64,000 bases of DNA from Terrabacter sp. Root181. Lineage in GTDB: Bacteria; Actinomycetota; Actinomycetes; Actinomycetales; Dermatophilaceae. The notes beneath the pieces are model-generated. The model was not told the origin of the DNA and made no database searches. It saw only the letters and a list, made by a program, of their open reading frames with translations. The translations under genes and the position numbers were made by a program. The DNA is taken from NCBI RefSeq assembly GCF_001428505.1, contig NZ_LMHU01000001.1, forward strand, positions 602,457 to 666,456, read 5' to 3'. Shown here one piece after another: positions 1,507-61,595 of the stretch; position 1 is the first letter of the stretch; each line of letters opens with the position of its first letter.

Positions 1507-2205
1507 TCACCGCGCCCAGAGGTACTCGACCTCGGGACGTCCCGCGCCGGCATACCTCGACCGTCGCACGGCGACCCTGGTCTCACAGAGGTACTCGGCG
1601 TAGCGGCGCGCGGTGACCCGGCTGACGCCGAGCTCCTCTCCGAGCTCGGTCGCCGAGCGGCCCGTGTCGGCGTCGCGCAACAGGCGTGAGACGCGAGCGA
1701 GCAGCTCCTCGCCCATCCCCTTGGGCAGCCGCGCCTCGGTCGCCACGCGCGCGCCGGCGAAGACCTCGTCGACCTCGGCCTGCGTGCCGATCTCCGCGCC
1801 GCTCGTCACCTGGTCGCGGTAGGCGCGGTAGGCGAGCAGCCGCTCGCGCAGCGTCGCGAAGACGAAGGGCTTGAGGAGGTACTGCACGATCCCGAGCGAC
1901 ACGGCGGCGCGGACGACGTCGAGGTCCCGCGCCGACGTGACCGCGATGACGTCGGCGCGGTGGCCGGCGGCACGCATGGCGCGCACGACGTCGAGACCGT
2001 GCCGGTCGGGGAGGTTCATGTCGAGCAGGACGACGTCGATCTCCTTGTCCTGCAAGGTCTTCAGCGCCGCCTGGGACGTGCCTACGGTCGCGACGACCTC
2101 GAAGCCGTCGACGCGGCCGACGTATGCCGTGTGGGCCTCGGCCGCGATCGGCTCGTCCTCGACGACGAGGACCCGCAGCACCGCGGACACCGGTGGCTCA
2201 GTCAT
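1507..2205 (-). CDS. response regulator of citrate/C4-dicarboxylate type (DpiA/DcuR/CitB-like)
   Basis: A 232-residue cytoplasmic response regulator. The receiver domain occupies residues 10-130, with the acidic pair ED at 16-17, phospho-acceptor D62 in VVLLDMNLPD and K112 in YLLKPF. The C-terminal domain ends with a winged-helix-like segment (LGVSRVTARRYAEYL), as in CitB/DcuR proteins rather than NarL or OmpR types. The ATG at 2205 lies inside the end of the sensor kinase gene (8-base overlap), so the pair is translationally coupled. With the kinase it most likely controls the divergent dctA gene. Confidence 0.9.
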   Translation of the reverse strand: MTEPPVSAVLRVLVVEDEPIAAEAHTAYVGRVDGFEVVATVGTSQAALKTLQDKEIDVVLLDMNLPDRHGLDVVRAMRAAGHRADVIAVTSARDLDVVRAAVSLGIVQYLLKPFVFATLRERLLAYRAYRDQVTSGAEIGTQAEVDEVFAGARVATEARLPKGMGEELLARVSRLLRDADTGRSATELGEELGVSRVTARRYAEYLCETRVAVRRSRYAGAGRPEVEYLWAR

Positions 2206-3835
2206 CGCCACCACCCGCCGGCAGCCGCACCGTGAACGTCGCCCCCGGCGGACCCGACACCTCGAGCGTCCCCCCGAGCCGGTCGACGGTCTGCCCCACG
2301 AGGGCCAGCCCGATGCCGCGGCGCCCGGCGCTGCCCTGCTCCTTCGTCGACCAGCCGCGCCGGAAGGCGTCGTCGACCGCACCCGGCGGCAGGCCCGGCC
2401 CGTCGTCGGAGACCTCGAGGACGGCATACGCGTCCTCGACCCGGGAGTCGAAGCGCACGTGCCGCTCCGGCCGGGGGGTCCCGGGCTCGCCGGCCACGGC
2501 ATCGAGGGCGTTGTCGATGAGGTTGCCGGCGATGGTCACGACGTCCCGGGTCGGCGCGACGTCGCGCGGCCAGTGCGCCCCCGGCTCGATCTCGAAGGCG
2601 ATGCCGCGCTCGTGCGCCTCGGCCGCCTTGCCGAGCAGCAGCGCCGTGAGCGCCGGCTCGTCGACCGAGCCGACGACGCGGTCGGTGAGCAGCTGCGAGA
2701 CCTGCAGCTCGTCCGTGGCGAAGTCCAGCGCGCGGTCGGTGTGCCCGAGCTCGATGAGGCTGACGATGGTGTGGAGCCGGTTGGCCGACTCGTGCGCCTG
2801 CGACCGGAGCGCCTCGGTGAGGCCGCGGGCCGAGTCGAGCTCGCCCGTCAGGGCCTCGAGGTCGGTGCGGTCGCGCAGGGTCGCGACGTGGCCGAGCAGG
2901 CGCCCCTGCCAGCGCGCCGGGCCGCGGTTGAGCACGAGCACCCGGGCCGACGTCACGTGCAGCTCGTCCTCGTGGGCGGCGTCGTCGGTGAGCGCGGCCG
3001 TCAGGGCCGGCGTCAGTCCCAGCTCGGCGACCGGTCGACCCACGGCGTCGGCGGGCAGGGCGAGGAGCCGGGTCGCCTCGTCGTTCGCGAGCCGGAGCCG
3101 GCCGTCGAGATCGGTGATGATGAGGCCCTCGGTGACGGCGTGGAGGACGGCGTCGTAGTACTCGTACATCTCGCGCAGCTGCTGCTCGCCGAGGCCGTGC
3201 GTCTGTCGTCGGATGCGGCGGGACACCAGACCCGTCCCGAGCCCCGACAGCAGCGCCGCCACGAGTCCCGCGAGCAGCAGCCCCGGCAGCTGGGCGCGCA
3301 CCCGCTCGCCGACCGCCGACTTGCGGATGCCGACGGAGACGAGCGCCACGACCGTGCCCTGGTCGGTCACGGGGACCACGACCCGCGACGACGGCCCGAG
3401 GGTGCCGGTGTAGTCCTCCTCGACGACCCCGCCCGCGAGCGCCGCCTCCGTGTGGCCGAGGAACTTCTTCCCGATCTGGGTCGGGTCGGGATGGGTGTAG
3501 CGGATCGCGTCGCGGCTCATGACGACGACGAAATCGGTGCCCGACTCGACCCGCACGCGCTCGGCGTAGGGCTGGAGCGCGGCCGACGGGTCGGGACCCT
3601 GCACGCCGGCGACGACGTCGGGCGTCGCGGCCATCGTCTCGGCCACCGCGAGGGCGCGGGCGATGGCCTCCTGGTCACCGGCCCGCTGCGCCTGGCCGTA
3701 CACCCCGGCGAGCCCGGCGGCGACGACGAGCACGGCGATGAGCACCTGCAGCGCGAAGGTCTGCCCCGCGACGCTCCAGCGACCGGGTGCACCGAGCACC
3801 CGGGTGGCGGTCGACGAGAGCGAGCTCAACGGCAT
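2198..3835 (-). CDS. sensor histidine kinase of citrate/C4-dicarboxylate type (DpiB/DcuS/CitA-like)
   Basis: A 545-residue membrane kinase. Transmembrane segments at about 25-48 and 183-205 flank an extracytoplasmic PDC-type sensor domain with the family's RYTHPDPTQIGKKF segment (112-125). A PAS domain follows (about 222-325). The phosphorylation motif is the DcuS/CitA form, RSQAHESANRLH, with H348 the probable phospho-histidine. ATP-binding boxes NLIDNALDA, SDDGPGLP and GIGLALV complete the protein. The start ATG coincides with a copy of the dispersed GTATGCCG motif. It is divergent from dctA with 116 bases between start codons, which fits a substrate-sensing system for C4-dicarboxylate or citrate uptake. 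Confidence 0.9.
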   Translation of the reverse strand: MPLSSLSSTATRVLGAPGRWSVAGQTFALQVLIAVLVVAAGLAGVYGQAQRAGDQEAIARALAVAETMAATPDVVAGVQGPDPSAALQPYAERVRVESGTDFVVVMSRDAIRYTHPDPTQIGKKFLGHTEAALAGGVVEEDYTGTLGPSSRVVVPVTDQGTVVALVSVGIRKSAVGERVRAQLPGLLLAGLVAALLSGLGTGLVSRRIRRQTHGLGEQQLREMYEYYDAVLHAVTEGLIITDLDGRLRLANDEATRLLALPADAVGRPVAELGLTPALTAALTDDAAHEDELHVTSARVLVLNRGPARWQGRLLGHVATLRDRTDLEALTGELDSARGLTEALRSQAHESANRLHTIVSLIELGHTDRALDFATDELQVSQLLTDRVVGSVDEPALTALLLGKAAEAHERGIAFEIEPGAHWPRDVAPTRDVVTIAGNLIDNALDAVAGEPGTPRPERHVRFDSRVEDAYAVLEVSDDGPGLPPGAVDDAFRRGWSTKEQGSAGRRGIGLALVGQTVDRLGGTLEVSGPPGATFTVRLPAGGGDD

Positions 3836-3868
3836 ACCTCGGGCCGCGAGAACTCAATGAACACAAAG

Positions 3869-5397: not shown

Positions 5398-5577
5398 TCC
5401 GTGGTCGTGGCCCATGTCACTCCTGCGCGTCCGGCACTTCGGGAACCTTTGGCACACATGGGGATTCCCGCCTGCGTATGCCGTCTGCCACGTCCCTGGA
5501 CCGCGCTCGCTTTGCGCTCGTCCCCCCATCTTCGACACAGTGGACGCTTCTTCGAGACATCTGTGACACGTAACTGT

Positions 5578-5622: not shown

Positions 5623-7440
5623 AGTGAACTGACCAAGAGTCCCGACGACGCGCTGCACCCGGCGCTCGAACCGCCACCCGTGAACCACGAGGAGGCCGCA
5701 CCCTCCCGGGTCGACACGGTCGTCTTCGGCGTCGCGGCGGCTGTCGCCATCGCGTTCGTGCTGTGGGGCGCCCTCGACACCGAGAGCCTCAGCGCGAGCG
5801 CCACCGCCGGCCTCGACTTCGTCGTCCACAACACCGGCTGGCTCTTCTCGCTCGTCGCCTCCGGCTTCGTCGTCTTCGTCATCTGGCTGGCCGCGAGCAA
5901 GTACGGCAACATCCCCCTCGGCGGTGACGGCGAGGCCCCCGAGTTCCGCACGTCGTCGTGGGTGGCGATGATGTTCTCCGCCGGCATGGGCATCGGCCTG
6001 ATGTTCTACGGCGTCACCGAGCCGCTCACCCACCTCGTGACCCCGCCGCCCGGCACCGGTGCCAAGGGCAACCCCGAGGCCGTGCAGACCGCGATGGCCA
6101 CGACGATGTTCCACTGGTCGCTGCACCCGTGGGCCATCTACGCGGTCGTCGGTCTCGCCGTCGCGTACGGCGTGTTCCGCAAGGGCCGCTCGCTGCTCAT
6201 CAGCTCGGCCTTCGCCCCGCTCTTCGGCGAGAAGCGTGCGAACGGCCCGGCCGGCCGCGTCATCGACATCTTCGCGATCTTCGCGACGCTCTTCGGCTCC
6301 GCGACCTCGCTCGGCCTCGGCGCCCTCCAGATCGGCTCCGGCCTCGAGATCGTCGGCGGCATCGGCACGGTCGGCAACGGCGTGCTCATCGGCATCATCG
6401 CCGTCCTGACCGTCTGCTTCATCCTCTCGGCCGTCTCCGGCATCGAGAAGGGCATCCAGTGGCTCTCGAACATCAACATGGTGCTCGCCCTGGCTCTCGC
6501 CTTCTTCGTCTTCGTCGTCGGCCCGACGGTCTTCATCCTCAACCTCGTGCCGACGACCATCGGCTCCTACTTCAAGGACCTCGCGATGATGTCGGCCCGC
6601 ACCGACGCCGCGGGTGGCGACGGCATGAAGGACTGGCTCGCGGGCTGGACGATCTTCTACTGGGCCTGGTGGGTCAGCTGGACGCCGTTCGTCGGCATGT
6701 TCATCGCGCGCATCTCGCGTGGCCGCACGATCCGCCAGTTCGTCTCCGGCGTGCTGCTCGTGCCGTCCGTCGTCTCGCTCATCTGGTTCGCCATCTTCGG
6801 CGGCGCGGGCATCGACCAGCAGCAGAACGGCCAGGACATCGCCGGGCAGGCCTCGCCCGAGGGCTCGCTCTTCGCGATGCTCGGCAACCTTCCCTGGCCG
6901 ACCGTGACCGCGGTCGTCGTCATGCTCCTCGTCGCGATCTTCTTCGTGTCGGGTGCCGACGCCGCGTCGATCGTCATGGGCACGCTCTCGGAGAAGGGCA
7001 CGCTCGAGCCGTCGAAGAAGACCGTGGTCTTCTGGGGCGCGGCCACGGGTGCCGTCGCCGCGACCATGCTGCTCATCGGCGGCGAGGACGCCTTGTCGGG
7101 CCTGCAGAACGTCACGATCGTCGCGGCCCTGCCCTTCCTCGTGATCATGGTCGGGTTGGCCGTCGCGCTCGTGAAGGACCTGTCGCGCGACCCGCAGGTC
7201 GTCCGGCGCCAGTATGCCGTCGCGGCCGTCGAGCACGCCGTCGTCGCGGGCGTCAGCGAGCACGGTGACGACTTCTCGCTCACGGTGCAGGAGACCGCGC
7301 CCGGCGAGGGCGTCGGCGAGATGGTCCAGACCGACCCCGTCGCCGACCCGGTCGTGGCCGAGGACGTCGCGGCGCAGGACGGGCTGGGCGGCGCGGTCGA
7401 CGAGCAGACCGAGAAGGTCGGCGCGTCGATGCGCCTCTGA
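5620..7440 (+). CDS. BCCT-family betaine/carnitine/choline transporter
   Basis: A 606-residue secondary transporter with twelve predicted membrane helices after a hydrophilic N-terminus of about 30 residues. The glycine-rich TM3 motif GMGIGLMFYGVTEPLTH is of the sodium-coupled BetP type. The TM8 aromatic box reads YWAWWVSWTPFVGMFIARIS, matching the substrate-binding tryptophans of the family. A hydrophilic C-terminal tail of about 80 residues, rich in Asp and Glu, could be an osmosensing tail as in BetP (inference). The likely role is glycine betaine or related solute uptake under osmotic stress. The gene stands alone between terminators and has an unusual structured leader (5578-5622). Confidence 0.9.
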   Translation: MSELTKSPDDALHPALEPPPVNHEEAAPSRVDTVVFGVAAAVAIAFVLWGALDTESLSASATAGLDFVVHNTGWLFSLVASGFVVFVIWLAASKYGNIPLGGDGEAPEFRTSSWVAMMFSAGMGIGLMFYGVTEPLTHLVTPPPGTGAKGNPEAVQTAMATTMFHWSLHPWAIYAVVGLAVAYGVFRKGRSLLISSAFAPLFGEKRANGPAGRVIDIFAIFATLFGSATSLGLGALQIGSGLEIVGGIGTVGNGVLIGIIAVLTVCFILSAVSGIEKGIQWLSNINMVLALALAFFVFVVGPTVFILNLVPTTIGSYFKDLAMMSARTDAAGGDGMKDWLAGWTIFYWAWWVSWTPFVGMFIARISRGRTIRQFVSGVLLVPSVVSLIWFAIFGGAGIDQQQNGQDIAGQASPEGSLFAMLGNLPWPTVTAVVVMLLVAIFFVSGADAASIVMGTLSEKGTLEPSKKTVVFWGAATGAVAATMLLIGGEDALSGLQNVTIVAALPFLVIMVGLAVALVKDLSRDPQVVRRQYAVAAVEHAVVAGVSEHGDDFSLTVQETAPGEGVGEMVQTDPVADPVVAEDVAAQDGLGGAVDEQTEKVGASMRL

Positions 7441-8139: not shown

Positions 8140-9316
8140 GGGGTTCCTCCACCACGAGGGGGAAGCGCACCGTCACGGTCGTGCCCTCACCCGGGGCGCT
8201 CTCGACGGCGGCGCTGCCGCCCAGGCCCGACGCCCGTTCGCGTATGCCGTCCAGCCCGTGTCCGCGGTTTCCGCGCGCTCCCGGGCGGCGGGCCGGGTCG
8301 AAGCCGTGCCCGTCGTCGCGGACGTCGAGGCGCACCTCGTCCGAGAGGAAGGTGAGGCTGACGACGGCCCGGGTGGCGTCGGCGTGCTCGACGACGTTGG
8401 CCACGGCTCCCCGCGCCGACCGGACGAGCGCGCTCGCGACAGCGGGGTCCACGGCGACGGGGGCACCGTGGACCCGGACCTGCACGTCGAGCCCGTGGGT
8501 CCCGCCGGCGACCCGCTCGAGGGCCGCCGTCAGGGCGTCGCCGGTCGCGTCGTCCTCGAGGCCGGCCGGGGCGAGGTCGCGCACCACGCGGCGCACCTCG
8601 TCGAGCCCCTCACGCGCCGCGACGCCGGCGGTGGCGACGTGCTCGCGGGCGGCGGCGGGCCTGCGGTCCCAGTCCTGCTCAGCCGCGCTGAGGAGCAGCG
8701 TGATGCTCGAGAGGCCTTGGCCCACGGAGTCGTGGATCTCCCGCGACAGCCTGGTCCGCTCGGCGAGGGCGCCCGAGCGGCGTTGGGCCGCAGCGAGATC
8801 GGCCTGTGCATCGGTGAGCTCGTCGATGAGGGTCTGTCGGGTGCGCGCCTCGCGCTCCAGTGCGCGGTACGACAGCACGGTGACGAGCGCGATGCCGACG
8901 GGCCCGACGACGACCGTCGGGTCCAGCTCGTCGATGATGCGACTCCACGCCACGCTGACGACCGTGGTCATGACGACGACGACCGTGACGGCATACGCGA
9001 AGGGAAGGACCTGGAGCACGGCGAAGGCCACCGGCACCGCCGTCCACGCGAAGGACGGGGCGACGAGGCTGAGGGCCACCCACAGGACGACGACGACCGT
9101 GATCCACACGTAGGGCCAGGCGGCGTGGCCGGCGACGAGCCGACGGGTGAGGTAGGCGGCGCCGAGGACGGCCGCACCCGCGAGGACGAGCACCGCCGTG
9201 CCGTCGAGGTCGTGGCGCAGGAGATAGCGCACCGAGCACGTCACGAGGAGCGCGACGAGGACGGCGTCGAGCCACCGGTCGAGTCGCGCCACCGGCGCGA
9301 GGATGCCCTCCTCCAT
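8132..9316 (-). CDS. NarL-type sensor histidine kinase (HisKA_3)
   Basis: A 394-residue membrane kinase. Residues 15-155 hold about six hydrophobic helices with almost no extracytoplasmic loop, so the sensor is intramembrane. A coiled linker follows, then the dimerisation/phosphorylation helix RLSREIHDSVGQGLSSITLL with H195, and a GHKL ATPase domain with NVVEHADATRA and DDGHGFD, ending around residue 385. The ATG at 9316 is supported by a TAGGCT -10 box 7 bases upstream (9324-9329). It partners the overlapping LuxR-type regulator; the signal is unknown. Confidence 0.88.
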   Translation of the reverse strand: MEEGILAPVARLDRWLDAVLVALLVTCSVRYLLRHDLDGTAVLVLAGAAVLGAAYLTRRLVAGHAAWPYVWITVVVVLWVALSLVAPSFAWTAVPVAFAVLQVLPFAYAVTVVVVMTTVVSVAWSRIIDELDPTVVVGPVGIALVTVLSYRALEREARTRQTLIDELTDAQADLAAAQRRSGALAERTRLSREIHDSVGQGLSSITLLLSAAEQDWDRRPAAAREHVATAGVAAREGLDEVRRVVRDLAPAGLEDDATGDALTAALERVAGGTHGLDVQVRVHGAPVAVDPAVASALVRSARGAVANVVEHADATRAVVSLTFLSDEVRLDVRDDGHGFDPARRPGARGNRGHGLDGIRERASGLGGSAAVESAPGEGTTVTVRFPLVVEEPRG

Positions 9317-10433: not shown

Positions 10434-11722
10434 GCACCATGGGACGAGGCAGCAGGGGGACGGCAGCGGTGGCGGCCCTCGCCGGGCTCGCGCTCACCAC
10501 CCTCGTCGCCTGCACCTCGAGTGGCCCCGCGACCACGGTGACCCCAGCAGCAGCACCGGCCACCGCGACCGGCGCGGCGACGAGGCCACTCGACGAGGAG
10601 ACGGTGACGCCGTCGGCGGCCGATCGGGCGCTGCTCGACGCCGACCTGCGGGCCGCCGCGTGGGACGACGACCTGCCGCGCGCCACGGCCCTCGTCGCGC
10701 GGGGCGCGGACGTCAACGCCAAGGACGACACCCAGCAGTCGGCGTACCTCATCGCCACGAGCGAGGGCCGCCTCGGGCTGCTCCGGCTGGCGCTCGCGCA
10801 CGGCGCCCGGGTCGACGACAAGGACAGCTGGAACGGCACCGGCCTCATCCGTGCGGCCGAGCGCGGGCACGGTCTCGTCGTCGGTGCGCTGCTCCGGGCC
10901 GGCATCGACCGCGACCACGTCAACCGGATCGGCTACCAGGCGGTCCACGAGGCCGTCTGGCTCGGGCGCGACACCACGACCTACGTCGACACGGTCCGCC
11001 TCCTCGTGGCCGGCGGTGCCGAGCTCACCCGACCCTCGCGCGACGAGGGCCTCACCCCGCTCCAGATGGCCCGCGAACGCGGGTTCGACCGACTGACAGG
11101 AGTCCTCGTGACAGCGACCACCACCGACCCCGTCAAGGACCCGGACGCCGCCCTCCTCGCGGCCGCGTCGAGCGGCGACGCCGACGGAGTGGCTCTGGCC
11201 CTGCGCGCGGGTGCGGGTCTCGAGACGCGGGACGCGAAGCAGCGCACCGCGCTGCTGCTCGCGGCCACCGGCGACCACGTCGACGCCGCACGGGTGCTCG
11301 TCGCGATGGGTGCCGACCCAGACGCCCTGGACGACCGCCACGACACGCCGTGGCTCGTCACCGGCGTCACCGGCAGCGTCCCGATGCTCGAGGCGCTCCT
11401 GCCCGCGGGACCCGACCTGACCATCCGCAACCGCTTCGGCGGTGTCTCCGTCATCCCCGCGAGCGAGCGCGGCCACGTGGACTACGTGCGCCGCGTCGTC
11501 ACGACCGGCATCGACGTCGACCACGTCAACGACCTCGGCTGGACCGCTCTGCTCGAGGCCGTCATCCTCGGCGACGGCGGTGAGCGCCACCAGCAGATCG
11601 TGCGCATCCTGCTCGACGCCGGCGCCGACCGGTCCATCGCCGACAAGGACGGGGTCACCGCGCTCGAGCACGCCCGCGCCAAAGGGTATGCCGCCATCGC
11701 CCGGATCCTCGAGCGTCCCTGA
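10430..11722 (+). CDS. ankyrin-repeat lipoprotein with duplicated halves
   Basis: A 430-residue lipoprotein. The signal sequence ends in lipobox LVAC (Cys 28), followed by a Thr/Ala-rich linker to about residue 62. Ankyrin repeats then fill two halves (about 65-215 and 235-428) that look like a tandem duplication: RDHVNRIGYQAVHEAVWLGR in the first matches VDHVNDLGWTALLEAVILGD in the second, each followed by a VRLLVAGGAEL or VRILLDAGADR helix. Ankyrins bind proteins, so an extracytoplasmic scaffold is likely. It is coupled to the beta-propeller gene through a 4-base overlap; ATG 10439 is an alternative start. Confidence 0.82.
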   Translation: MSTMGRGSRGTAAVAALAGLALTTLVACTSSGPATTVTPAAAPATATGAATRPLDEETVTPSAADRALLDADLRAAAWDDDLPRATALVARGADVNAKDDTQQSAYLIATSEGRLGLLRLALAHGARVDDKDSWNGTGLIRAAERGHGLVVGALLRAGIDRDHVNRIGYQAVHEAVWLGRDTTTYVDTVRLLVAGGAELTRPSRDEGLTPLQMARERGFDRLTGVLVTATTTDPVKDPDAALLAAASSGDADGVALALRAGAGLETRDAKQRTALLLAATGDHVDAARVLVAMGADPDALDDRHDTPWLVTGVTGSVPMLEALLPAGPDLTIRNRFGGVSVIPASERGHVDYVRRVVTTGIDVDHVNDLGWTALLEAVILGDGGERHQQIVRILLDAGADRSIADKDGVTALEHARAKGYAAIARILERP

Positions 11723-28185: not shown

Positions 28186-30241
<2,056 letters not shown>

Positions 30242-38497: not shown

Positions 38498-38504
38498 GGG
38501 CCGT

Positions 38505-44351: not shown

Positions 44352-44818
44352 CCGAGCACCCGGTGCTCGACGAGCTGGCCGCCCAGGAGGCGCGACTCGT
44401 CTTCGACCGCTTCGACGACGACACGGCATGGGCGTTGGGCGTCGCGCTGCGCGACGCGGCCCGGGCCGCAGGGTCGCCCGTGGCGATCTCGATCCGCCGC
44501 AACGGGCAGCGCCTCTTCCACGCGGCGCTGCCCGGGGCGACGGCCGACAACGACGGGTGGCTCGAGCGCAAGAGCGCCGTCGTCGACCGCTACGGCCACT
44601 CGTCCCTCTACGTCGGCGAGGAGTTCCGCGCCGCCGGCAAGACCTTCGAGGAGAGCTCGCGCCTCGACCCGGCAGGGTATGCCGCCCACGGTGGTGCCTT
44701 CCCGGTCATCGTCCGCGACGTGGGCTGCGTCGGCACCATCGCCGTGTCCGGCCTGCCGCAGCGCGAGGACCACCGGCTCGTGGTCGAGACGCTCGAGGCC
44801 TTCCTCGGACGTGCGTGA
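44348..44818 (+). CDS. UPF0303/HbpS-like heme-degrading-domain protein
   Basis: A 156-residue cytoplasmic protein of the UPF0303 group within the DUF336 (GlcG/HbpS) fold. Recognisable stretches are VAISIRRNGQRLFHAALPGA, KSAVVDRYGHSSLYVGEEF and GAFPVIVRDVGCVGTIAVSG, then LPQREDHRLVVE. HbpS binds and degrades heme in Streptomyces, but close UPF0303 proteins are uncharacterised, so this is a fold assignment only. It is coupled to the small membrane protein gene by a GTGA overlap. Confidence 0.82.
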   Translation: MTEHPVLDELAAQEARLVFDRFDDDTAWALGVALRDAARAAGSPVAISIRRNGQRLFHAALPGATADNDGWLERKSAVVDRYGHSSLYVGEEFRAAGKTFEESSRLDPAGYAAHGGAFPVIVRDVGCVGTIAVSGLPQREDHRLVVETLEAFLGRA

Positions 44819-48481: not shown

Positions 48482-49666
48482 TCAGCGGTCGCGGTCGGCG
48501 GAACCCGACGCGGTCACCGTGAACGACACCGGGGGCGTGAAGCCCTCGGCCTCGAAGGCTGCCGTGACCGCCGCGGTCACGGCGTCGGCGTCGGAGGCGC
48601 GGACGATGGCGATGCACGAGCCGCCGAAGCCGCCCCCGGTCATCCGGGCACCCAGTGCACCGTGCGAGCGGGCCGTCTGCGTCGCGACGTCGAGCTCCTC
48701 GCACGACACCTCGTAGTCGTCGCGCAGCGACGCGTGCGAGGCGTCGAAGAGCCGCCCGACCTCGTCGAGGTCGCCGCGCTCGAGAGCCGCCACGGTGAGC
48801 GTGACGCGCTCGATCTCGGTGACGACGTGGCGCACCCGGCGCCGCACCTCGTCGGACCCGAGCCGCCCCAGGGCGGCCTCGAGCCCGGCGGGGTCGATCT
48901 CGCGCAGCGTCTCGACGCCGAGGTCCTCGGCGGCGGCTTCGCAGGCCTCGCGCCGGGCGGCGTACTGCCCGTCGACGAGCGCGTGCTCGGCCCTGGTGTC
49001 GGTGACGAGCAGGACGTAGCCCGCCGAGTCGAGGTCGAAGGGGACCTGGCGCGTCTCGCCCGACCGGCAGTCGAGCAGGAGCGCGGCGGCGGCGGCGCAG
49101 AGCAGCGAGGCCGACTGGTCCATGCCGCCCGTCGGGGCGCCGGCGATGACGTTCTCGGCCTCGACGCAGCGTGCGGCGAGGCGTGCGCGGCCCTCGGCCG
49201 AGCCGAGCAGGTCGAGGTCGAAGAGGTCGCTCGCCGCCGCGGCGACGGCGCACTCGAGGGCCGCGGAGCTCGAGAGGCCCGCACCGAGCGGCACGGTGGA
49301 GTCGACGAGGACGTCGAGACCGTCGACGTCGAGGCCGTCGCGGCGCAGGGCCCAGAGGACGCCCGCGACGTAGGAGCCCCAGCCACCGGGCTGCTCGGGC
49401 GAGATGTCGTCGAGGGCGACCTCGACGACGCCGTCCTGCTGGGCGGAAGCCATCCGGAGGACGCCGTCGTCGCGTCGGGACACGGCGGCATACGTCCGGT
49501 GCGGCAGGGCGATCGGGAGGCACAGGCCGCCGTTGTAGTCCGTGTGCTCGCCGATCAGGTTGACCCGGCCCGGCGCCGACCACACGCCCGCGGGGGCGTC
49601 GCCGAACCTCCGCTCGAACGCGCGCCACACCGACTCGACGACCTCGTCGGGGGTGCGCTCGCTCAC
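48482..49666 (-). CDS. galK: galactokinase
   Basis: A 394-residue GHMP kinase converting galactose to galactose-1-phosphate. The galactokinase signature APGRVNLIGEHTDYNGG lies near residue 31, the ATP loop VPLGAGLSSSAALECAV near 130, and the third GHMP motif GARMTGGGFGGSCIA near the C-terminus. GTG 49666 overlaps the galT stop as GTGA, so galT-galK are coupled. It is last in the deoR-galT-galK run and completes the first two Leloir steps for galactose released by the neighbouring galactosidases. Confidence 0.95.
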   Translation of the reverse strand: MSERTPDEVVESVWRAFERRFGDAPAGVWSAPGRVNLIGEHTDYNGGLCLPIALPHRTYAAVSRRDDGVLRMASAQQDGVVEVALDDISPEQPGGWGSYVAGVLWALRRDGLDVDGLDVLVDSTVPLGAGLSSSAALECAVAAAASDLFDLDLLGSAEGRARLAARCVEAENVIAGAPTGGMDQSASLLCAAAAALLLDCRSGETRQVPFDLDSAGYVLLVTDTRAEHALVDGQYAARREACEAAAEDLGVETLREIDPAGLEAALGRLGSDEVRRRVRHVVTEIERVTLTVAALERGDLDEVGRLFDASHASLRDDYEVSCEELDVATQTARSHGALGARMTGGGFGGSCIAIVRASDADAVTAAVTAAFEAEGFTPPVSFTVTASGSADRDR

Positions 49667-50793
49667 CGGGCGACCTCGCGCAGGCGGGCAGCCGCCTTCT
49701 CGGGCGCCACGTCGTTGACCCAGCCACCGACGCCGGACTCGGAGCCGGCGAGGAACTTCAGCCGCCCCGGGCCGCGCAGCACCGACATGAGCTGCAGGTG
49801 CAGCCGCGAGACGTCCCGTCCGGTCCTGGCCGGGGCCTGCTGCCACGCGGCGATGTAGGGCAGCGTGACGGGCGAGCCGTCCTCGGCGACGTAGTAGCGG
49901 TCGAGGCGACCGAGCAGGTCGCGGTAGATGACGGCCAGCTCGTCGCGCTCGTCGTCGTCGAGCGCGACGAGGTCGGGCACGTCGCGGTGGGGGGCGAGGT
50001 GCACCTCGACCGGCCAGCGCGCCGCGAAGGGGACGTATGCCGTCCAGTGCGTCCCCGAGACGACGACCCTCGAGCCGTCGGCGCGCTCGGCGGCGAGGAT
50101 GTCGGCGCCGAGGAGCCGGCCCGTGCGCTCGTGGTGACGGCGGGCCGCGTCGAGCAGCGCCTTGGTGCGGTCGGGCAGGTAGGGGTAGGCGTAGATCTGG
50201 CCGTGCGGGTGCGGGAGCGTCACGCCGATCTCGCGGCCACGGTTCTCGAAGGCGAAGACGTGCTCGACGTCGGGCAGGGCGCCGAGGGCCGCGGTGCGCT
50301 GCGCCCACGTGTCGATGACGGTGCGCACCCGGTCGACCGGGAGGTCCTTGAACGACGACTCGTGGTTGCTCGTGAAGCACACGACCTCGCAGCGGCCGAC
50401 AGCCGGACGGGTGCCGAAGATCCCCGTCGGGTCGGGGACGTCGGCACCGAGGGAGGTGACGGCATACGACGGGAAGCGGTTCTCGAAGACGACGACCTGG
50501 TAGTCGCGCTCGGGGATCTCGGACGGCGCCGAGCCGTGCCCGGCGGGGCAGAGCGGGCACTCGTCCTTGGGCGGCATGAAGGTGCGGTGCTGGCGGTGCG
50601 CGGCCACCGCCACCGAGTCGTCGACGAGGGCGTCGTGGCGCAGCTCGCCCGACTGGACGCGCGGCTCGACCGGGCGCGGGTCCACGGCGGTGCGCTCGGG
50701 CGTGCCGGGCTCGTCGACGTAGATGATCTCGCGCCCGTCGGCGAGGTGCCTCGTCGTGAAGCGGGCGGCCGTCCGGCTGTCGGTGGGCATCAT
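49663..50793 (-). CDS. galT: galactose-1-phosphate uridylyltransferase
   Basis: A 376-residue enzyme moving UMP between UDP-glucose and galactose-1-phosphate. The active-site triad sequence is HPHGQIYAYPY, with the second His as nucleophile; a zinc Cys pair is in CPLCPAG and the phosphate-binding region in ENRFPSYAV. The ATGATG at 50788-50793 offers two starts, both overlapping the DeoR regulator stop, so translation is coupled. It is distinct from the DUF4921 homologue at 33366-34631. Confidence 0.94.
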   Translation of the reverse strand: MMPTDSRTAARFTTRHLADGREIIYVDEPGTPERTAVDPRPVEPRVQSGELRHDALVDDSVAVAAHRQHRTFMPPKDECPLCPAGHGSAPSEIPERDYQVVVFENRFPSYAVTSLGADVPDPTGIFGTRPAVGRCEVVCFTSNHESSFKDLPVDRVRTVIDTWAQRTAALGALPDVEHVFAFENRGREIGVTLPHPHGQIYAYPYLPDRTKALLDAARRHHERTGRLLGADILAAERADGSRVVVSGTHWTAYVPFAARWPVEVHLAPHRDVPDLVALDDDERDELAVIYRDLLGRLDRYYVAEDGSPVTLPYIAAWQQAPARTGRDVSRLHLQLMSVLRGPGRLKFLAGSESGVGGWVNDVAPEKAAARLREVAR

Positions 50794-51568: not shown

Positions 51569-53566
51569 TCAGTCCTCCCTGAGCACGGCCACGCCACCGG
51601 GGGCGAGGCGGACGCTGCCGTCGACAGGGGCGTCCGCGACGAGGTCGTACCCACTTGCGGTGATGGTCTGCTCGGCACCGGTGTGGTTGAGCAGGAAGAG
51701 CCACGAGCTGCCGCCGCCGCGGCGCCGGGTCGTCTCGACGCCGCGGGGGAGGTCCGCGACCGTCGGCTCGACGCCGGCTGCGTCCAGGACGTCGTCGAGA
51801 AGGGCGCCCAGGGTGGTGTCGTCCGGGAGTGTGCTGACGTACCAAGCGGATCCGGCGCTGCCCGTGCCCGCGCGACGGGTGACCGCGGGTCGGCCGGTGA
51901 GCGGCCCGGCGGCATACGTCGCCAGCACGTCGGTGCCGGGGAGGGCGGTGACGTCCTCGCTCCACCACGTGCCGGTGCCGTGGGCGAGGGCGACGCTCTC
52001 GTCGGGGCCGAGCGGGAAGAACTCCTCGACGCGCACCCCGAGCAGGTCGCGGAACGCGCCCGGGTAGCCGCCGAGCCGGACGTGGTCGTTGTCGTCGCTG
52101 ATGCCGGAGAAGTACGTGACGAGGACCTCAGCGCCGGCCTCGGCGGCCGCGGAGACGGCGGCCGCGTGCGCGTCGGTGACGAGGTAGAGCTGCGGCACGA
52201 CGACGAGGGCGTATGCCGTGAGGTCGGCCGACGGGTGCACGACGTCCGCCGTGACCCCGCGGTCGTGGAGCGCCCGGTGGATCGCCTGCGCGGCGGTCAG
52301 GGCGTCGAGCTCGGAGCTCGGCATGCAGGGCCCCTCGGCGGCCCAGATCGCTTGGTAGTCATGGAGGATCGCGACGCGGGAGTCGACGCGGCTGCCGACG
52401 AGCTCCCCGAGGCGACCGGCGATGCGGCCGAGCTCCTCGACCTCGCGGAAGCGGGCGCTGTCGGGGCCGGCGTGCGGCACGAGGGCGCTGTGGAACTTCT
52501 CGGAGCCGGCGCGCGACTGGCGCCACTGGAACCAGCCGATGGTGTCGGCGCCGCGGGCCACGTGGGCGAGGGCGTCGCGGATCGTCTGGCCGAAGTCCTT
52601 GGCGTGGTTGGTCGGCTGCCAGTTGACGGCGCTCGTCGAGTGCTCCATCAGCATCCACGGCGCGCCGTCCGCGAGGCCGCGGGTCAGGTCGCCGCTGTAG
52701 GCGAGCTCGGCGCGCGGGTGCTCGAGGGCGTCGACGATGTAGTGGTCGGTGCTGACGACGTCGACGGTGGGGGTCCACTGCGAGTAGTCGAGGTGGCGGA
52801 AGTGGTCGAGCGTCATGAAGTTCGTCGTCACGGGGACGCCGGGGGAGAGCTCGTCGAGGACGGCCCGCTCGGCCCACATGTGGTCGAGGAGGGCATCGGA
52901 GCTGAAGCGCTTGTAGTCGAGCACGTGGGTCGGGTTGTTGAACGTCGTCGACCGGCGCGGCGGGAGGATCTGCTCCCAGTCGGTGTAGCGCTGGCTCCAG
53001 AAGGCCGTGCCCCACGCGTCGTTGAGCACCTCGAGCGTGGTGTAGCGACGTCGGAGCCAGGTGCGGAAGTGCCGGGCGCACTCGTCGCAGTAGCACGGCA
53101 GGTTGTGGCACGCGTACTCGTTGGACACGTGCCACATCGCGAGGGCCGGGTGCTCGTGGTAGCGGGTCGCCAGCTGCCGCGTGAGGGCGACGGCGTACTC
53201 GCGGAAGACCGGCGAGGTGGGGCACCACGTCTGCCGGCTGCCCGGCCACAGGGTGTGGCCGTCGACGTCCACCGGCAGGATCTCCGGGTGTGCGGCCGAG
53301 AGCCACGGCGGCGGGGTCGCGGTCGCGGTCGCGAGGTCGACGGCGATGCCGCCGGCGTAGAGCTTGTCCATGATCGTGTCGAGCCACTCGAACGCGTACT
53401 CGCCCTTGGCCGGCTCGAGCCAGCTCCACGAGAAGATGCCGAGGCTGACGAACGACACGTTGGCGCGCCGCATCAGCTCGATGTCCTCGTCCCAGACGTG
53501 GCGGGGCCACTGCTCGGGGTTGTAGTCGCCACCGAGTGCCAGGGTCTTCGTCGGCCATGAGCGCAT
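51569..53566 (-). CDS. GH42 beta-galactosidase
   Basis: A 665-residue cytoplasmic beta-galactosidase. The N-terminus GGDYNPEQWPRHVWDEDI is the GH42 start. The acid/base is E150 in WHVSNEYACHNLPC and the nucleophile is E308 in WMLMEHSTSAVNW. Cysteines C115, C153, C158, C160 and C163 form the zinc site of many GH42 enzymes. A trimerisation domain (about 395-610) and small C-terminal domain follow. GAGGAG lies 14 bases before the ATG, rather far. It heads the operon with deoR, galT and galK, and is divergent from the sugar importer. Confidence 0.93.
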   Translation of the reverse strand: MRSWPTKTLALGGDYNPEQWPRHVWDEDIELMRRANVSFVSLGIFSWSWLEPAKGEYAFEWLDTIMDKLYAGGIAVDLATATATPPPWLSAAHPEILPVDVDGHTLWPGSRQTWCPTSPVFREYAVALTRQLATRYHEHPALAMWHVSNEYACHNLPCYCDECARHFRTWLRRRYTTLEVLNDAWGTAFWSQRYTDWEQILPPRRSTTFNNPTHVLDYKRFSSDALLDHMWAERAVLDELSPGVPVTTNFMTLDHFRHLDYSQWTPTVDVVSTDHYIVDALEHPRAELAYSGDLTRGLADGAPWMLMEHSTSAVNWQPTNHAKDFGQTIRDALAHVARGADTIGWFQWRQSRAGSEKFHSALVPHAGPDSARFREVEELGRIAGRLGELVGSRVDSRVAILHDYQAIWAAEGPCMPSSELDALTAAQAIHRALHDRGVTADVVHPSADLTAYALVVVPQLYLVTDAHAAAVSAAAEAGAEVLVTYFSGISDDNDHVRLGGYPGAFRDLLGVRVEEFFPLGPDESVALAHGTGTWWSEDVTALPGTDVLATYAAGPLTGRPAVTRRAGTGSAGSAWYVSTLPDDTTLGALLDDVLDAAGVEPTVADLPRGVETTRRRGGGSSWLFLLNHTGAEQTITASGYDLVADAPVDGSVRLAPGGVAVLRED

Positions 53567-53808: not shown

Positions 53809-53837
53809 TTGACAGCGCCACCGGGCGCCGACATCCT
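53809..53837 (+). promoter_or_regulatory. sigma-A-type promoter of the importer operon
   Basis: TTGACA (53809-53814), 17-base spacer, CATCCT (53832-53837). The predicted transcription start falls inside the candidate DeoR site that begins at 53839, giving a leader of about 85 bases before ATG 53929. Confidence 0.5.
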
Positions 53838-53838
53838 C

Positions 53839-53851
53839 TGTTTGTTGTTGA
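53839..53851 (+). promoter_or_regulatory. candidate DeoR operator, importer side
   Basis: TGTTTGTTGTTGA lies directly downstream of the -10 box, over the predicted transcription start, and matches the GH42-side element apart from a 3-base length difference. Confidence 0.45.
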
Positions 53852-53928
53852 AGGTTTCTGGTGGCAGATGTTCGACTCTGTCGCCTCCTGTCGACAACGA
53901 ACCCGGCACAGCGTCAAAGGAGACCGCA

Positions 53929-55281: not shown

Positions 55282-55297
55282 CGGGAGGCGAGCCGCC

Positions 55298-56191: not shown

Positions 56192-56192
56192 C

Positions 56193-57110: not shown

Positions 57111-57111
57111 C

Positions 57112-59313
57112 GTGACCGACCTGACCGACCAGTCCGCACCGTCCACCGTCCACCTGGAGTCCGCCGGGACCGCGCTCGTGCTCGAGCCGCGTCCCGGCGG
57201 CTCGGGGCTGCCCGAGGTGGTCCACTGGGGCCCCGCGCTCGAGGGCGGGGCGAGCACGTATGCCGCCCTGTCCGCCGTGACGACGGCGCCCGTCACCCAC
57301 AGTGCGCTCGACGTGCCGTGGCCGCTCACCGTGCTGCCCGGCGAGGCCGACGGCTGGTCGGGCACGCCCGGCTGGTCCGGGCACCGGGCCGGTGCCGCGG
57401 GCGCCGTGCGCTGGGGCGACGTGACGTGCGATGCCACCGACGGCGCCGTCGTGACGCGCGCGAGCTCGCCGGACGGCATACGCCTGGAGGTGCGGCACGC
57501 GCTCGACGAGCACGGCGTGCTCCGCGTCGACGCGTCGGTGACCAACACGAGCGACGAGACCGCACCCCTCGACGTGTCGGCGCTGCGGGCGATCCTGCCG
57601 CTGCCCGTGCGCGCCGACGAGGTGCTCGACCTCACCGGCCGCTGGTGCCGCGAGCGCTCACCGCAGCGCAGCCGACTCGACCACGGCACCCACCTGCGTG
57701 CGTCGCGCCGCGGGCGCACCGGGCACGACGCGACCCTGCTGATGATGGCCGGGACGACCGGCTTCGGCTGGCGCTCCGGTGAGGTCTGGGCCGTGCACAC
57801 CGCGTGGAGCGGCAACCACGAGCACCTCGTCGAGGCGCTGCCCGAGGGCGCCGGGCGCCACCACGCCGTCATCGGCGGCGGCGAGCTGCTCGCTCCCGGC
57901 GAGGTGCGCCTCGCGCCGGGGGAGTCGTATGCCGCCCCGACCGTCGTCTTCGTCCACTCGACCGACGGCCTCGACGGCCTGTCCCGACGGCTGCACCGCA
58001 GCCTGCGCGCCCGTCCCGCTCACCCGTCGCGCCCGCGCCCCGTCGTGCTCAACACGTGGGAGGCCGTCTACTTCGAGACCGACCTCGAGCAGCTGAAGTC
58101 CCTGGCCGACACGGCCGCCCGCATCGGGGTCGAGCGCTTCGTCCTCGACGACGGCTGGTTCGGCGGCCGGCGGCACGACCGCGCCGGGCTCGGCGACTGG
58201 GTCGTCTCGACCGACGTGTGGCCCGACGGCATGGGCCCGCTCGTCGACCACGTCAAGGGCCTCGGTCTCGAGTTCGGGCTGTGGTTCGAGCCCGAGATGG
58301 TCAACGAGGACAGCGACCTCGTGCGCGAGCACCCCGAGTGGGTGCTGCGCCCGGCTGCCGGCTCGCCGCGCGAGTGGCGCTGGCAGCAGCTGCTCGACCT
58401 CACCGACGACGACGCCTCCGCCCAGCTGCTCGAGCGGATCAGCGGCCTCGTCGCCGACATCGGCATCGACTACATCAAGTGGGACCACAACCGCGACCTC
58501 CTCGAGGCCGTGCACACCGTCGACGGCCCGTCCGGTCGGCTCGTCGACGCCCCCGCCGTGCACGCGCACACGCTCGCCTTCTACCGGCTCCTCGACGACC
58601 TGCGGGCCCGCCACCCGCGGCTCGAGATCGAGTCGTGCAGCAGTGGCGGCGCGCGCGTCGACCTCGCCGTGCTCGACCGCACCGACCGCATCTGGACGAG
58701 CGACTGCAACGACGCCCTCGAGCGTGCGAGCATCCAGCGCTGGACGAGCCTGCTCGTGCCGGCGGAGCTCATGGGCACTCACGTCGGCCCGGCGACCGCG
58801 CACACGACTCACCGCACGGTCGACCTCGGCTTCCGCATGCTCATGGCCCTCCAGGGCCACGCGGGCCTCGAGTGGGACATCACGCAGTGCTCCGACGACG
58901 AGCTCGAGGCGCTGACGGCGTGGACGGCGCTCGCACGCGAGCTGCGGCCGCTGCTGCACACCGGTGACCTCGTGCGGTCCGAGAGCCCCGACGGGACCGT
59001 GCTCGTGACGGGCACGGTCGACGCGGACCGCCGCCGGGCGGCCTACACGGTCGCCAGGCTGGTGACCGGTCGCGACGCGGTGACCGGGGCGCTGCCCCTG
59101 CCGGGCCTCGACCCCAGCCGGTCGTATGCCGTCCGCGTCCGTCCCGAGGCCGGGCTCCCTGCCGTCGTGCAGAACACGCCGCCGTCCTGGTGGGACGGGG
59201 CGCTCGGCGACGACGGCGTCGTCGTGCCCGGTGCCATCCTGAGCCGGGTCGGGCTGCCGGTCCCGGTGATGGGCCCTGCCCAGGGCTACCTCCTCGACCT
59301 CCGGGCCGTCTGA
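57112..59313 (+). CDS. GH36 alpha-galactosidase
   Basis: A 733-residue cytoplasmic enzyme, the usual GH36 length. After the N-terminal beta-sandwich, the barrel begins near residue 310 (VLNTWEAVYFETD). The nucleophile is D458 in YIKWDHNRDLLE and the acid/base D531 in RIWTSDCNDALER; FVLDDGWFGGRR and GLWFEPEMVNEDSDL are also conserved. It is last in the importer operon and would cleave imported raffinose-family or melibiose-type sugars; galactose then goes to GalK and GalT. The gene carries four copies of the dispersed GTATGCCG motif, unlike the rest of this operon. Confidence 0.94.
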   Translation: MTDLTDQSAPSTVHLESAGTALVLEPRPGGSGLPEVVHWGPALEGGASTYAALSAVTTAPVTHSALDVPWPLTVLPGEADGWSGTPGWSGHRAGAAGAVRWGDVTCDATDGAVVTRASSPDGIRLEVRHALDEHGVLRVDASVTNTSDETAPLDVSALRAILPLPVRADEVLDLTGRWCRERSPQRSRLDHGTHLRASRRGRTGHDATLLMMAGTTGFGWRSGEVWAVHTAWSGNHEHLVEALPEGAGRHHAVIGGGELLAPGEVRLAPGESYAAPTVVFVHSTDGLDGLSRRLHRSLRARPAHPSRPRPVVLNTWEAVYFETDLEQLKSLADTAARIGVERFVLDDGWFGGRRHDRAGLGDWVVSTDVWPDGMGPLVDHVKGLGLEFGLWFEPEMVNEDSDLVREHPEWVLRPAAGSPREWRWQQLLDLTDDDASAQLLERISGLVADIGIDYIKWDHNRDLLEAVHTVDGPSGRLVDAPAVHAHTLAFYRLLDDLRARHPRLEIESCSSGGARVDLAVLDRTDRIWTSDCNDALERASIQRWTSLLVPAELMGTHVGPATAHTTHRTVDLGFRMLMALQGHAGLEWDITQCSDDELEALTAWTALARELRPLLHTGDLVRSESPDGTVLVTGTVDADRRRAAYTVARLVTGRDAVTGALPLPGLDPSRSYAVRVRPEAGLPAVVQNTPPSWWDGALGDDGVVVPGAILSRVGLPVPVMGPAQGYLLDLRAV

Positions 59314-59320
59314 CGGTCGG

Positions 59321-59842
59321 TCAGGGGGTCCGGCAGTCGCGGCAGGTGCCGAGCAGCGCGGCGTGGCCGGTGTCGAGGACGAAGCCGAGGTCGTCGCGCA
59401 GCCGCGCTGCGACCCCGTCGAACACGTCCGGTGCCACGTCGAGCACACGCCCGCAGACGTGGCACTGGACGTGGGCGTGCCCGTGCTCGTGGTGGTGCTC
59501 GGGCTCCGGGTCGGCGAGGTGGTAGACCGTGGCCGACCCGCCGAGGTGGACGTGCGAGAGCACGCCGGTCTCGGCGAGCGAGGTCAGCGTGCGGTAGACG
59601 GTGGCCCGGTGGACGCTCGGCTCGACGTCGGCCACCCGCGTGCCGATCTGCTCGGCCGTGAGGTGCTCGTCGGCGAGGCCGGCGGCGTCGAGGACGTGCA
59701 GGACGGCATACCTCGCCGGGGTGACGCGCTCACCGGCGGACCGCAGCCGCGCGACGGCGGCGGCCACCCGGGGGCTCAGTGCGGGGCTCGGTGCGGGGCC
59801 CGGTGCGGGGCTCGGTGCGGGGCTCTCGGCGGAGGGGGGCAC
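59321..59842 (-). CDS. Fur-family metal-dependent regulator (Zur/PerR/Fur type)
   Basis: A 173-residue regulator. After a Pro/Ala/Ser-rich N-terminus comes the winged helix (RVTPARYAVLHVLDAAGLAD, then VHRATVYRTLTSLAETGVLS). Metal sites follow: HHHEHGHAHVQCHVCG and the C-terminal CRDC, so both Cys pairs of the structural zinc are present. Which metal or signal it senses is not decided by eye. GTG 59842 is chosen because GATAAT lies 6 bases before it; a GTG at 59884 would run into the divergent tdh promoter. The N-terminal tail is coded by four 12-base tandem repeats. Confidence 0.85.
   Translation of the reverse strand: MPPSAESPAPSPAPGPAPSPALSPRVAAAVARLRSAGERVTPARYAVLHVLDAAGLADEHLTAEQIGTRVADVEPSVHRATVYRTLTSLAETGVLSHVHLGGSATVYHLADPEPEHHHEHGHAHVQCHVCGRVLDVAPDVFDGVAARLRDDLGFVLDTGHAALLGTCRDCRTP
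59777..59824. repeat. four tandem 12-bp repeats in the Fur-family gene
   Basis: Consecutive copies CAGTGCGGGGCT, CGGTGCGGGGCC, CGGTGCGGGGCT, CGGTGCGGGGCT. The unit is a multiple of three, so copy changes keep the frame; each adds four residues (P, A, S or G) to the tail of the regulator. Confidence 0.85.
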
Positions 59843-60912: not shown

Positions 60913-60923
60913 AGGGCTCTCGT

Positions 60924-61595
60924 ATGCCGTCCGCTCCCGACCCGGGTGACCGCCCCCGTCCGCTCGTCCTCCTCCACGGCCTCGGCCAGTCGCCGATCGC
61001 GTGGCAGGACTTCGTGTCGGCCTACGGCGCCGGACGCCCGATGACGGCGCCGTGGATGAAGGGCCTCAAGCCCAAGGACCCCGTCGGCTTCGACCTCGGG
61101 GCGGCAGCGTCCGGCGTCGCCGACGAGCTCGAGCTGCAGGGCGTGCGGCAGGCCGACTTCGTCGGGGTGTCGGTCGGCGCGAGCGTCGCGCTGCGCCTCG
61201 CCGTCGAGCGGCCTGAGCTCGTCGGACGGCTCGTCCTCGGCGGCGCGCTCGTACGGCCCGGCAGGGGTGCGCTGCGGATGCAGCGCCTCGCCATGCGGCT
61301 CGTGCCGGAGGGCCGGCTCGTGGACGCGGGGGTCTCGCGTCCGCGGATGCTCGCCGTGCTCGACGCGCTCAAGGGCTTCGACGGCACCGAGTCGCTGCGC
61401 ACGGTCACGGCGCCCGTGCTCGTCGTCGCCGGGTCGAGGGACAAGGCCGGGATCGCCGCCGCGCAGGAGCTGTCGCGGCACCTGCCGACCGCCCACCTCC
61501 AGGTCATCGACGGCGCCGGAGCCCTCGTCAACACCGAGTCGGCGCGCGAGCTCGCGGACCTCACGCACGCCTTCCTCGACGAGCCGGACCCGTGA
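60924..61595 (+). CDS. alpha/beta-hydrolase-fold protein lacking the catalytic histidine
   Basis: A 223-residue protein with the alpha/beta-hydrolase fold. The oxyanion region LLHGLGQ (residues 16-22), nucleophile elbow GVSVGAS (S83) and the acid in GSRDKAG (D173) are present. The usual C-terminal GAGH is GAGA here, with Ala 200 where the catalytic His normally lies, so hydrolase activity is doubtful unless another His (for example H215) replaces it. The ATG at 60924 lies in a copy of the dispersed motif, 11 bases after tdh. The stop overlaps the next gene start as GTGA. Confidence 0.82.
   Translation: MPSAPDPGDRPRPLVLLHGLGQSPIAWQDFVSAYGAGRPMTAPWMKGLKPKDPVGFDLGAAASGVADELELQGVRQADFVGVSVGASVALRLAVERPELVGRLVLGGALVRPGRGALRMQRLAMRLVPEGRLVDAGVSRPRMLAVLDALKGFDGTESLRTVTAPVLVVAGSRDKAGIAAAQELSRHLPTAHLQVIDGAGALVNTESARELADLTHAFLDEPDP

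Follow-up and report, generated by a model that had tools for sequence, protein, structure and literature searches.

The 64,000-nucleotide stretch analyzed here, which we call the window, comes from Terrabacter sp. Root181 (contig NZ_LMHU01000001.1, positions 602,457 to 666,456). Its genes, which we predicted with a simple purpose-made gene caller, lie on both strands, and a single octamer, GTATGCCG, recurs among them from 1548-1555 to 60922-60929. There are 38 exact copies, 19 per strand, whereas 100 dinucleotide shuffles gave a mean of 0.83 (standard deviation [SD] 0.93; maximum, 4) and an order-3 Markov model predicted 1.98. An earlier note on this DNA had drawn attention to the octamer. 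It had placed the copies at 1549..60928, which is right to within one base, and it had given an expectation of about two copies from composition and a near-even strand split (19/20). We also recovered its 39 occurrences of GTATGCC, 38 of which extend to the octamer and continue with T (27) or C (10), to which we add one followed by G.

Thirty-four copies lie fully within genes, where the word is read as TAT GCC (23), GCA TAC (7), or GGC ATA (4). Three more span ATG CCG start codons, and one is intergenic (Table 1). The several frames and the three starts had been described before; of the two intergenic copies claimed, we found only the one at 5476. It had not been stressed that the sense-strand copies in genes share a single frame, in which all 23 encode Tyr-Ala. 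The remaining 11 of the 34 intragenic copies are antisense.

Codon controls and the copies in the window

The uniform Tyr-Ala reading of the sense copies is what a codon-pair, amino acid, or mutational bias acting alone might produce. We permuted synonymous codons, which preserves both the proteins and the codon usage. In 345 kb of coding DNA from the source genome (G000), GTATGCCG was observed 151 times, compared with 7.7 (SD 2.8) after shuffling, and the near-null count predicted by such a bias was not found. The excess over this codon null was 6.9- to 34-fold across seven word-bearing genomes (G307 stood outside the test, no genes having been called there). Tyrosine codons in the window tell the same story. 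In the frame G.TAx.GCC.G there are 23 TAT and 4 TAC codons, and elsewhere there are 8 TAT and 331 TAC, so that 23 of all 31 TAT codons sit in the word. Antisense copies are also common (11 of 34 intragenic copies in the window), and the genera g11 and g5 have similar base composition and lack GTATGCCG. The codon shuffle and the Tyr codon counts rule out a codon-pair or protein-level cause, which the earlier note had judged unlikely, and we give bias alone a negligible probability. Because of these controls, the single Tyr-Ala sense frame does not upset the conclusion that the over-representation of GTATGCCG is a DNA-level signal.

The synonymous neighbor GTACGCCG fell below the codon null in all seven word-bearing genomes (for example, G000, 43 versus 62; G122, 3 versus 12.4; and G257, 3 versus 11.3), and a separate set of counts agreed (G343, 0 versus 5.3; G350, 7 versus 15.1; and G315, 7 versus 9.3). 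This deficit is as expected if one-step precursors had been converted into GTATGCCG.

Table 1. Exact copies of GTATGCCG in the window and the predicted genes in which they lie
Position	Strand	Location
1548..1555	-	in gene 1507-2190 (-)
2122..2129	+	antisense in gene 1507-2190 (-)
2422..2429	-	in gene 2198-3835 (-)
3830..3837	-	over ATG CCG start, gene 2198-3835 (-)
5476..5483	+	intergenic
7212..7219	+	in gene 5680-7440
8242..8249	+	antisense in gene 8132-9316
8989..8996	-	in gene 8132-9316
11686..11693	+	in gene 10469-11722
18720..18727	-	in gene 18676-20202
20013..20020	-	in gene 18676-20202
21460..21467	-	in gene 20768-22636
25637..25644	+	in gene 25554-26855
26755..26762	-	antisense in gene 25554-26855
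28746..28753	-	in gene 28186-30207
30193..30200	+	antisense in gene 28186-30207
31268..31275	-	antisense in gene 30297-31742
35844..35851	+	in gene 34672-37026
36722..36729	-	antisense in gene 34672-37026
38503..38510	+	over ATG CCG start, gene 38505-39329 (+)
39700..39707	-	in gene 39365-39835
40472..40479	+	in gene 40374-43784
42704..42711	+	in gene 40374-43784
43408..43415	-	antisense in gene 40374-43784
44677..44684	+	in gene 44348-44818
46125..46132	+	antisense in gene 45616-47079
47297..47304	-	in gene 47076-48455
49486..49493	-	in gene 48482-49666
50035..50042	+	antisense in gene 49663-50790
50460..50467	-	in gene 49663-50790
51910..51917	-	in gene 51569-53566
52211..52218	+	antisense in gene 51569-53566
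57258..57265	+	in gene 57112-59313
57474..57481	-	antisense in gene 57112-59313
57927..57934	+	in gene 57112-59313
59124..59131	+	in gene 57112-59313
59704..59711	-	in gene 59321-59767
60922..60929	+	over ATG CCG start, gene 60924-61595 (+)

Two long gaps free of the word, 11694-18719 and 52219-57257, include both of the lowest-GC 4-kb windows (0.673 and 0.676). The gene at 40374-43784 encodes a Snf2-type helicase with a distant likeness to the SCO1167-family and Zorya ZorD helicases, far under the curated cutoffs. A frequent extension of the window copies, GTATGCCGTC, contains ATGCCGTC, which matches the opening eight bases of the extended neisserial DNA uptake sequence (DUS), quoted in the literature as GCCGTCTGAA. 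The overlap is probably chance, the CTG core being missing.

Abundance, conservation, and pairing of the octamer

The source genome (4.94 Mb) contains 2,231 copies of GTATGCCG, 1,135 on one strand and 1,096 on the other (P = 0.42), and the word is the most over-represented octamer in a 427-kb sample (179 versus 10.4 under an order-3 model). The earlier note had called the word nonpolar and had named a genome-wide count near the Markov expectation as grounds for abandoning its claim; the strands are indeed balanced, and the count is far above that expectation. Its second ground, an excess explained by Tyr-Ala codon pairs in synonymous shuffles, failed in the codon controls above. A reversed control word occurs 250 times in the same genome. 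However, 13 of its 18 copies in the 427-kb sample are pieces of real words, and the control therefore overstates the background.

In stretches from the seven word-bearing genomes, scored with a word-masked order-3 model, GTATGCCG occurred 418 times versus 8.7 expected, and the 24 one-mismatch words ranged from 0.2 to 3.9 times expectation. Therefore, all eight bases are recognized exactly. One neighbor, GTATGTCG, is in excess (28 versus 8.0), as decayed copies would be. The flanking bases vary among genera, and for this reason we regard the octamer as the core.

Copies are spaced 1.0 to 2.4 kb apart on average in six of the seven sampled genomes and 3.4 kb apart in G213. Their density between genes is at least that inside genes in six of seven (per kb, G213, 0.75 versus 0.16; G277, 2.61 versus 0.66; G257, 0.39 versus 0.40); G000 has the lower intergenic value (0.31 versus 0.45). 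Strands are near equal in the stretches sampled, among them the opening 80 kb of G213, a genome in one contig (12 and 11), and a small G315 sample is uneven (14 versus 5).

The sites are conserved. Six congeners, which are 86 to 92% identical to the window across aligned DNA, retain 31/36, 32/36, 29/34, 29/36, 19/22, and 19/31 aligned sites exactly, compared with fractions of 0.34 to 0.54 for phase-matched octamers. Comparison with five relatives showed TAT retained in 102 of 110 cases within the word and in 4 of 20 outside it, although the relatives share ancestry and the cases are not independent. We divided the leading 59.5 kb of the window into conserved DNA, to which four or more of five relatives could be aligned, and a variable remainder. 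The conserved part holds 35 sites over 47.3 kb and the remainder 1 over 12.2 kb (P = 0.003), with the proviso that a portion of the "variable" sequence may be DNA to which the retrieved stretches did not extend. As a gauge of whether the word sits in more permissive parts of the genome, identity of the flanks averaged 0.891 at GTATGCCG sites and 0.901 (SD 0.017) at random ones, a comparison that is confounded by codon phase. Together, the alignments argue that GTATGCCG is maintained by selection or drive.

Close pairs of the word are mostly inverted. At distances of 8 to 40 bp we counted 22 inverted and 3 direct GTATGCCG pairs (P = 0.0002), and all words tried in 20 genomes gave 32 and 7 (P = 0.00007). 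The inverted pairs are mostly between genes (6 of 32 are intragenic), and by their printed sequence several have arms longer than the word.

A site for chromosome organization or segregation (bound by a nucleoid protein, loading SMC, or resembling SlmA/Noc sites or the FtsK-orienting polar sequences [KOPS]) would also be genome-wide, conserved, and largely limited to shared DNA, as GTATGCCG is in the window. However, the word lacks a KOPS-type polarity toward the terminus, is not palindromic, and forms inverted pairs; it is also missing or respelled in other genera and spelled differently within one genus, g114 (see below). We therefore consider a segregation site very unlikely.

Spellings across the family

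A LeuS search placed the source genome beside Terrabacter records and Intrasporangiaceae bacterium URHB0013 (93 to 96% identity), and we therefore take its family, f1, to be the Dermatophilaceae/Intrasporangiaceae group. We surveyed 297 genomes in 20 families of its order, 89 of them, in 53 genera, from f1. Within the order, enrichment was confined to f1; elsewhere the maximum was 177 copies for GTATGCCG and 101 for CGAAGGGGG, an unrelated word described below. In 46 genomes, which represent 30 of the 53 genera, GTATGCCG was abundant, with 221 or more copies per Mb; two of these genomes (g129) were also rich in GGATGCCG. Our threshold also gave labels to two borderline genomes, G310 (GTATGCCG, 81 per Mb; GTACGCCG, 209 per Mb) and the 68%-complete G363 (90 per Mb).

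Other genera use GTACGCCG, GGATGCCG, or GTATGCGG, each a one-base variant of GTATGCCG. GTACGCCG exceeded 300 per Mb in eight genomes of six genera (maximum, 3,903 copies), and GGATGCCG exceeded 500 per Mb in five genomes of three genera (maximum, 3,949 copies), with 382 per Mb in G235 (g11). By counts from fetched stretches, GTATGCGG was a top word in g110 (G311, 34 versus 2.0 per 80 kb; G348, 8 in 20 kb). The unrelated CGAAGGGGG occurred 1,311 to 1,939 times in four genomes, all from g5 and g9, with no strand bias genome-wide. In two genera that lack GTATGCCG, this word was dispersed, with 46 and 49 copies of CGAAGGGG in 60 kb (G066, L044-L046; G178, L053-L055), on both strands, in several frames, and in some inverted pairs (3 versus 2 direct at 8 to 40 bp). 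The excess over the codon null was 5.5- to 6.1-fold for CGAAGGGG and 6.0-fold for GGATGCCG in G316. At named loci surrounding leuS, GTATGCCG was dense in Terrabacter (10 to 13 per 23 kb), Humibacillus xanthopallidus (19), Lapillicoccus (18), Intrasporangium oryzae (14), and Knoellia remsis (14 in 15 kb), GGATGCCG was dense in a Humibacillus metagenome-assembled genome (16 in 22 kb), and neither was dense in Intrasporangium flavum.

Spelling differs even between congeners. In g114, G315 has 1,062 copies of GTATGCCG and 374 of GTACGCCG, whereas G351 has 19 and 1,463. The top octamer in 80 kb of G351 (L108-L109 and L237-L238) was GTACGGCG (54 versus 11.1; in coding DNA, 42 versus 10.6 under the codon null), and it may be one more spelling or reflect mixing with GTACGCCG.

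At aligned sites we found no swap of GTATGCCG for GGATGCCG in place (0 of 30 and 0 of 38 comparisons, in seven locus pairs that share L122; G315 and G351 stood outside the comparison, as their stretches cover different regions with 293 aligned bases). Therefore, the new spelling arose at other sites. This bears on the idea that the octamer is a methylation or restriction-modification word, or a repeat like highly iterated palindrome 1 (HIP1), kept up through modification or mismatch repair. Cyanobacterial HIP1 illustrates that words iterated many times can be tied to modification, and the sharp, exact specificity and the scarcity of one neighbor, GTATGCTG (1 versus 5.8), would suit such a word. 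However, GTATGCCG differs from its reverse complement, unlike a HIP1-type palindrome. Its inverted pairs also speak against this idea, as does the excess of GTATGTCG. Only GTATGCTG among the 24 one-mismatch words is clearly short, and this, with the lack of in-place swaps, rules out repair-type conversion. We regard a modification word as highly improbable.

The word could also be a Chi-like hotspot, read by a helicase-nuclease of the RecBCD, AddAB, or AdnAB type in double-strand break repair. In size the word is Chi-like, an exact 8-mer that occurs roughly once every 2 kb. Some Chi sites are G rich, as CGAAGGGGG is, and RecC is present in all four CGAAGGGGG genomes. However, GTATGCCG and CGAAGGGGG have no strand bias genome-wide, nor does GTATGCCG in the G213 stretch; inverted pairs are in excess, and the congeners G315 and G351 are spelled differently. 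RecC (PF04257) was found in 34 of the 89 family genomes but not in the source genome. It is missing from 33 of the 46 genomes labeled as using GTATGCCG only (two of them borderline) and present in 15 of the 26 labeled wordless (two of which use GTATGCGG), compared with 19 of 63 word-bearing genomes, an association in the wrong direction (P = 0.018). Because RecC is absent and polarity is lacking, RecBCD-Chi is excluded for GTATGCCG in the source genome, in a search that covered RecC and not AddAB or AdnAB. For CGAAGGGGG, the lack of polarity is the sole argument against RecBCD-Chi. Overall, we think a Chi-like role unlikely.

In a tree of ComEC proteins from 29 genera, the spelling labels were clustered, requiring 8 changes versus 13.1 when shuffled (0 of 200 shuffles as low). 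GTATGCCG is found to either side of the midpoint root, and the two genera with GGATGCCG form a sister pair. The tree is of one gene, with a root for drawing only, and G310 was labeled GTACGCCG and G311 GTATGCGG. The pattern agrees with an early origin of GTATGCCG followed by several respellings or losses.

Several weaker words turned up in these scans. Two come from genera with no known spelling, GCCGCGTTT in G094 (L047-L049; 11 versus 0.5 per 60 kb) and CGTAGCGA in G327 (L100-L101; 15 versus 1.6 per 40 kb). A longer repeat around TGACCGTCGAACTG in G314 (L104-L105; 9-mers at 26 to 32 copies per 40 kb) is possibly a repeat array or a repetitive gene. GGTCGAGTA/GTCGAGTAG were over-represented in G326 (L098-L099; 16 to 17 per 40 kb) and G310 (L112-L113; 10 per 40 kb) and resemble parts of dispersed repeats; GTATCGAGA was also over-represented in G326. 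De novo scans of pooled outgroup loci with names were confounded by orthology. Among these, in pooled named Brevibacterium loci, CCTCGGCG occurred 341 times versus 79.5, a count that is not independent because the loci are orthologous.

A probable uptake-like word and its relation to known systems

We consider it likely that GTATGCCG is the core of a self-recognition tag resembling a DNA uptake sequence in Terrabacter and many other Dermatophilaceae. The earlier note had likened its density to that of uptake sequences, naming methylation, recombination, and nucleoid roles as alternatives, and the genome count, codon null, strands, conservation, scarcity in variable DNA, inverted pairs, and above all the dialects support that reading. 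We file the word as one that would work like an uptake sequence, because it is short and exact, lacks strand bias, is conserved, is scarce in variable DNA, forms inverted pairs, and has one-base dialects; strict membership would rest on uptake assays and a reader protein.

The source genome has candidate machinery. Its comEC gene (Competence and metallo-beta-lactamase domains) adjoins comEA (SLBB and HHH), and a Flp/Tad locus encodes a TadA-type ATPase, two T2SSF proteins, a ParA-like protein, RcpC, TadE, and Flp. In our proposal, a receptor on the surface of a transforming cell would favor double-stranded DNA that bears the exact octamer, and the bound DNA would pass through ComEA and then ComEC. 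The likeliest receptor would be a minor Flp/Tad pilus subunit or some other competence protein that binds DNA. Word-bearing DNA from kin would recombine into the chromosome, so that the word would accumulate and be kept by biased uptake and by selection against its loss. If receptor specificity drifted, a new spelling would build up at new sites, producing dialects and hindering exchange from one genus to another. Our inferences from the genomes concern competence, the sequence specificity of uptake, the reader's identity, and how the word accumulates.

Several observations weigh against an uptake tag. Thirty-four of the 38 window copies are intragenic, whereas neisserial DUS are mostly intergenic (PMC2397512). 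The shortage of GTACGCCG rests on the codon null, because a Markov model puts that word above expectation in word-bearing genomes (80 versus 44.3, or 1.8-fold; 2.4-fold in wordless ones). The codon-null excess of GTACGCCG where it is the spelling is also lower (2.3- to 5-fold), which calls for more caution with this word, and no GTACGCCG pairs 8 to 40 bp apart were found in three genomes. The low count of GTATGCTG belongs here too. Eight changes on the ComEC tree are needed for five labels; switches or losses must therefore be frequent. By counts, 12 genera have none of these words, and de novo scans of 40 to 60 kb in nine of the 12 gave no clear one (G050, G094, G235, G327, G307, G341, G361, G331, G334, and G318 were scanned; g100, g105, and g123 were left out). 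ComEC was found in 29 of 30 genomes and TadE in 86 of 89, wordless genera included. Their near-universal presence therefore cannot set the spelling, and we rejected both Flp/Tad and ComEC as the switch. PilM, which marks pili of type IVa, the kind bearing the neisserial receptor, was found in just 4 of 89 genomes and not in the source genome. A reader of the neisserial type is therefore unlikely in most of them, and a type IVa pilus is an improbable common reader, on a search that covered PilM and not ComP.

Even so, we lean toward a broader proposal, in which these words would represent a third independent lineage of transformation guided by uptake sequences and the first in Gram-positive bacteria. 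A Flp/Tad-type or other receptor would replace the type IVa pilin as reader, and at least five spellings (GTATGCCG, GTACGCCG, GGATGCCG, GTATGCGG, and CGAAGGGGG) would partition gene exchange across the family and switch within a genus. To our knowledge, only two families, both Gram negative, take up self-tagged DNA, with no other among the matches listed, and we know of no natural transformation in Dermatophilaceae. Literature searches on the octamer, on uptake sequences in actinobacteria or this family, and on Chi/AdnAB gave no report of GTATGCCG or of a family uptake sequence among the matches listed. If the proposal is true, a Gram-positive case that mostly lacks the type IVa marker would mean that such tags evolve repeatedly. 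Natural competence would be predicted for dozens of Dermatophilaceae genera, and adding the word to DNA would provide a genetic tool. Differently spelled congeners such as G315 and G351 would offer a direct route to the reader protein.

Chi, KOPS, and HIP1 are likewise short, highly iterated genomic words. Chi and KOPS are strand polar and HIP1 is palindromic; GTATGCCG is neither. The uptake signal sequences (USS) of Pasteurellaceae have a density similar to that of GTATGCCG, and more than one word type exists within that family. As in the USS, one orientation is favored in the reading frame, with 97 sense and 58 antisense copies in G000 (compare PMC2346458). The host and machinery differ from those of the USS, and the flanks of GTATGCCG were examined by per-column base counts in the window only.

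Micrococcus luteus belongs to the same phylum, and the source genome has comEA, comEC, and Flp/Tad genes, which recalls the Flp/Tad-dependent transformation of that species. Transformation of M. luteus requires Flp/Tad genes (PMC4322843); the term "uptake sequence" does not occur in that paper.

The closest comparison is with the DUS of Neisseriaceae. The host of GTATGCCG is a high-GC Gram-positive bacterium, and the core has eight bases and lacks the functional CTG core of the DUS. ComP reads the neisserial word, whereas 85 of 89 genomes here lack PilM, so the reader is probably different, and word-guided uptake is a prediction from the genomes. Neisserial DUS form inverted pairs that act as terminators, are conserved, are not in recently acquired genes, and are spaced about 1.5 kb apart (PMC2397512), and they too have dialects (PMC3630211). 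Like them, GTATGCCG is a short exact word with thousands of copies on both strands at a spacing of 1 to 2 kb. Its sites are conserved, nearly absent from variable DNA, and found in close inverted pairs, and related genera use dialects that differ by few base changes.

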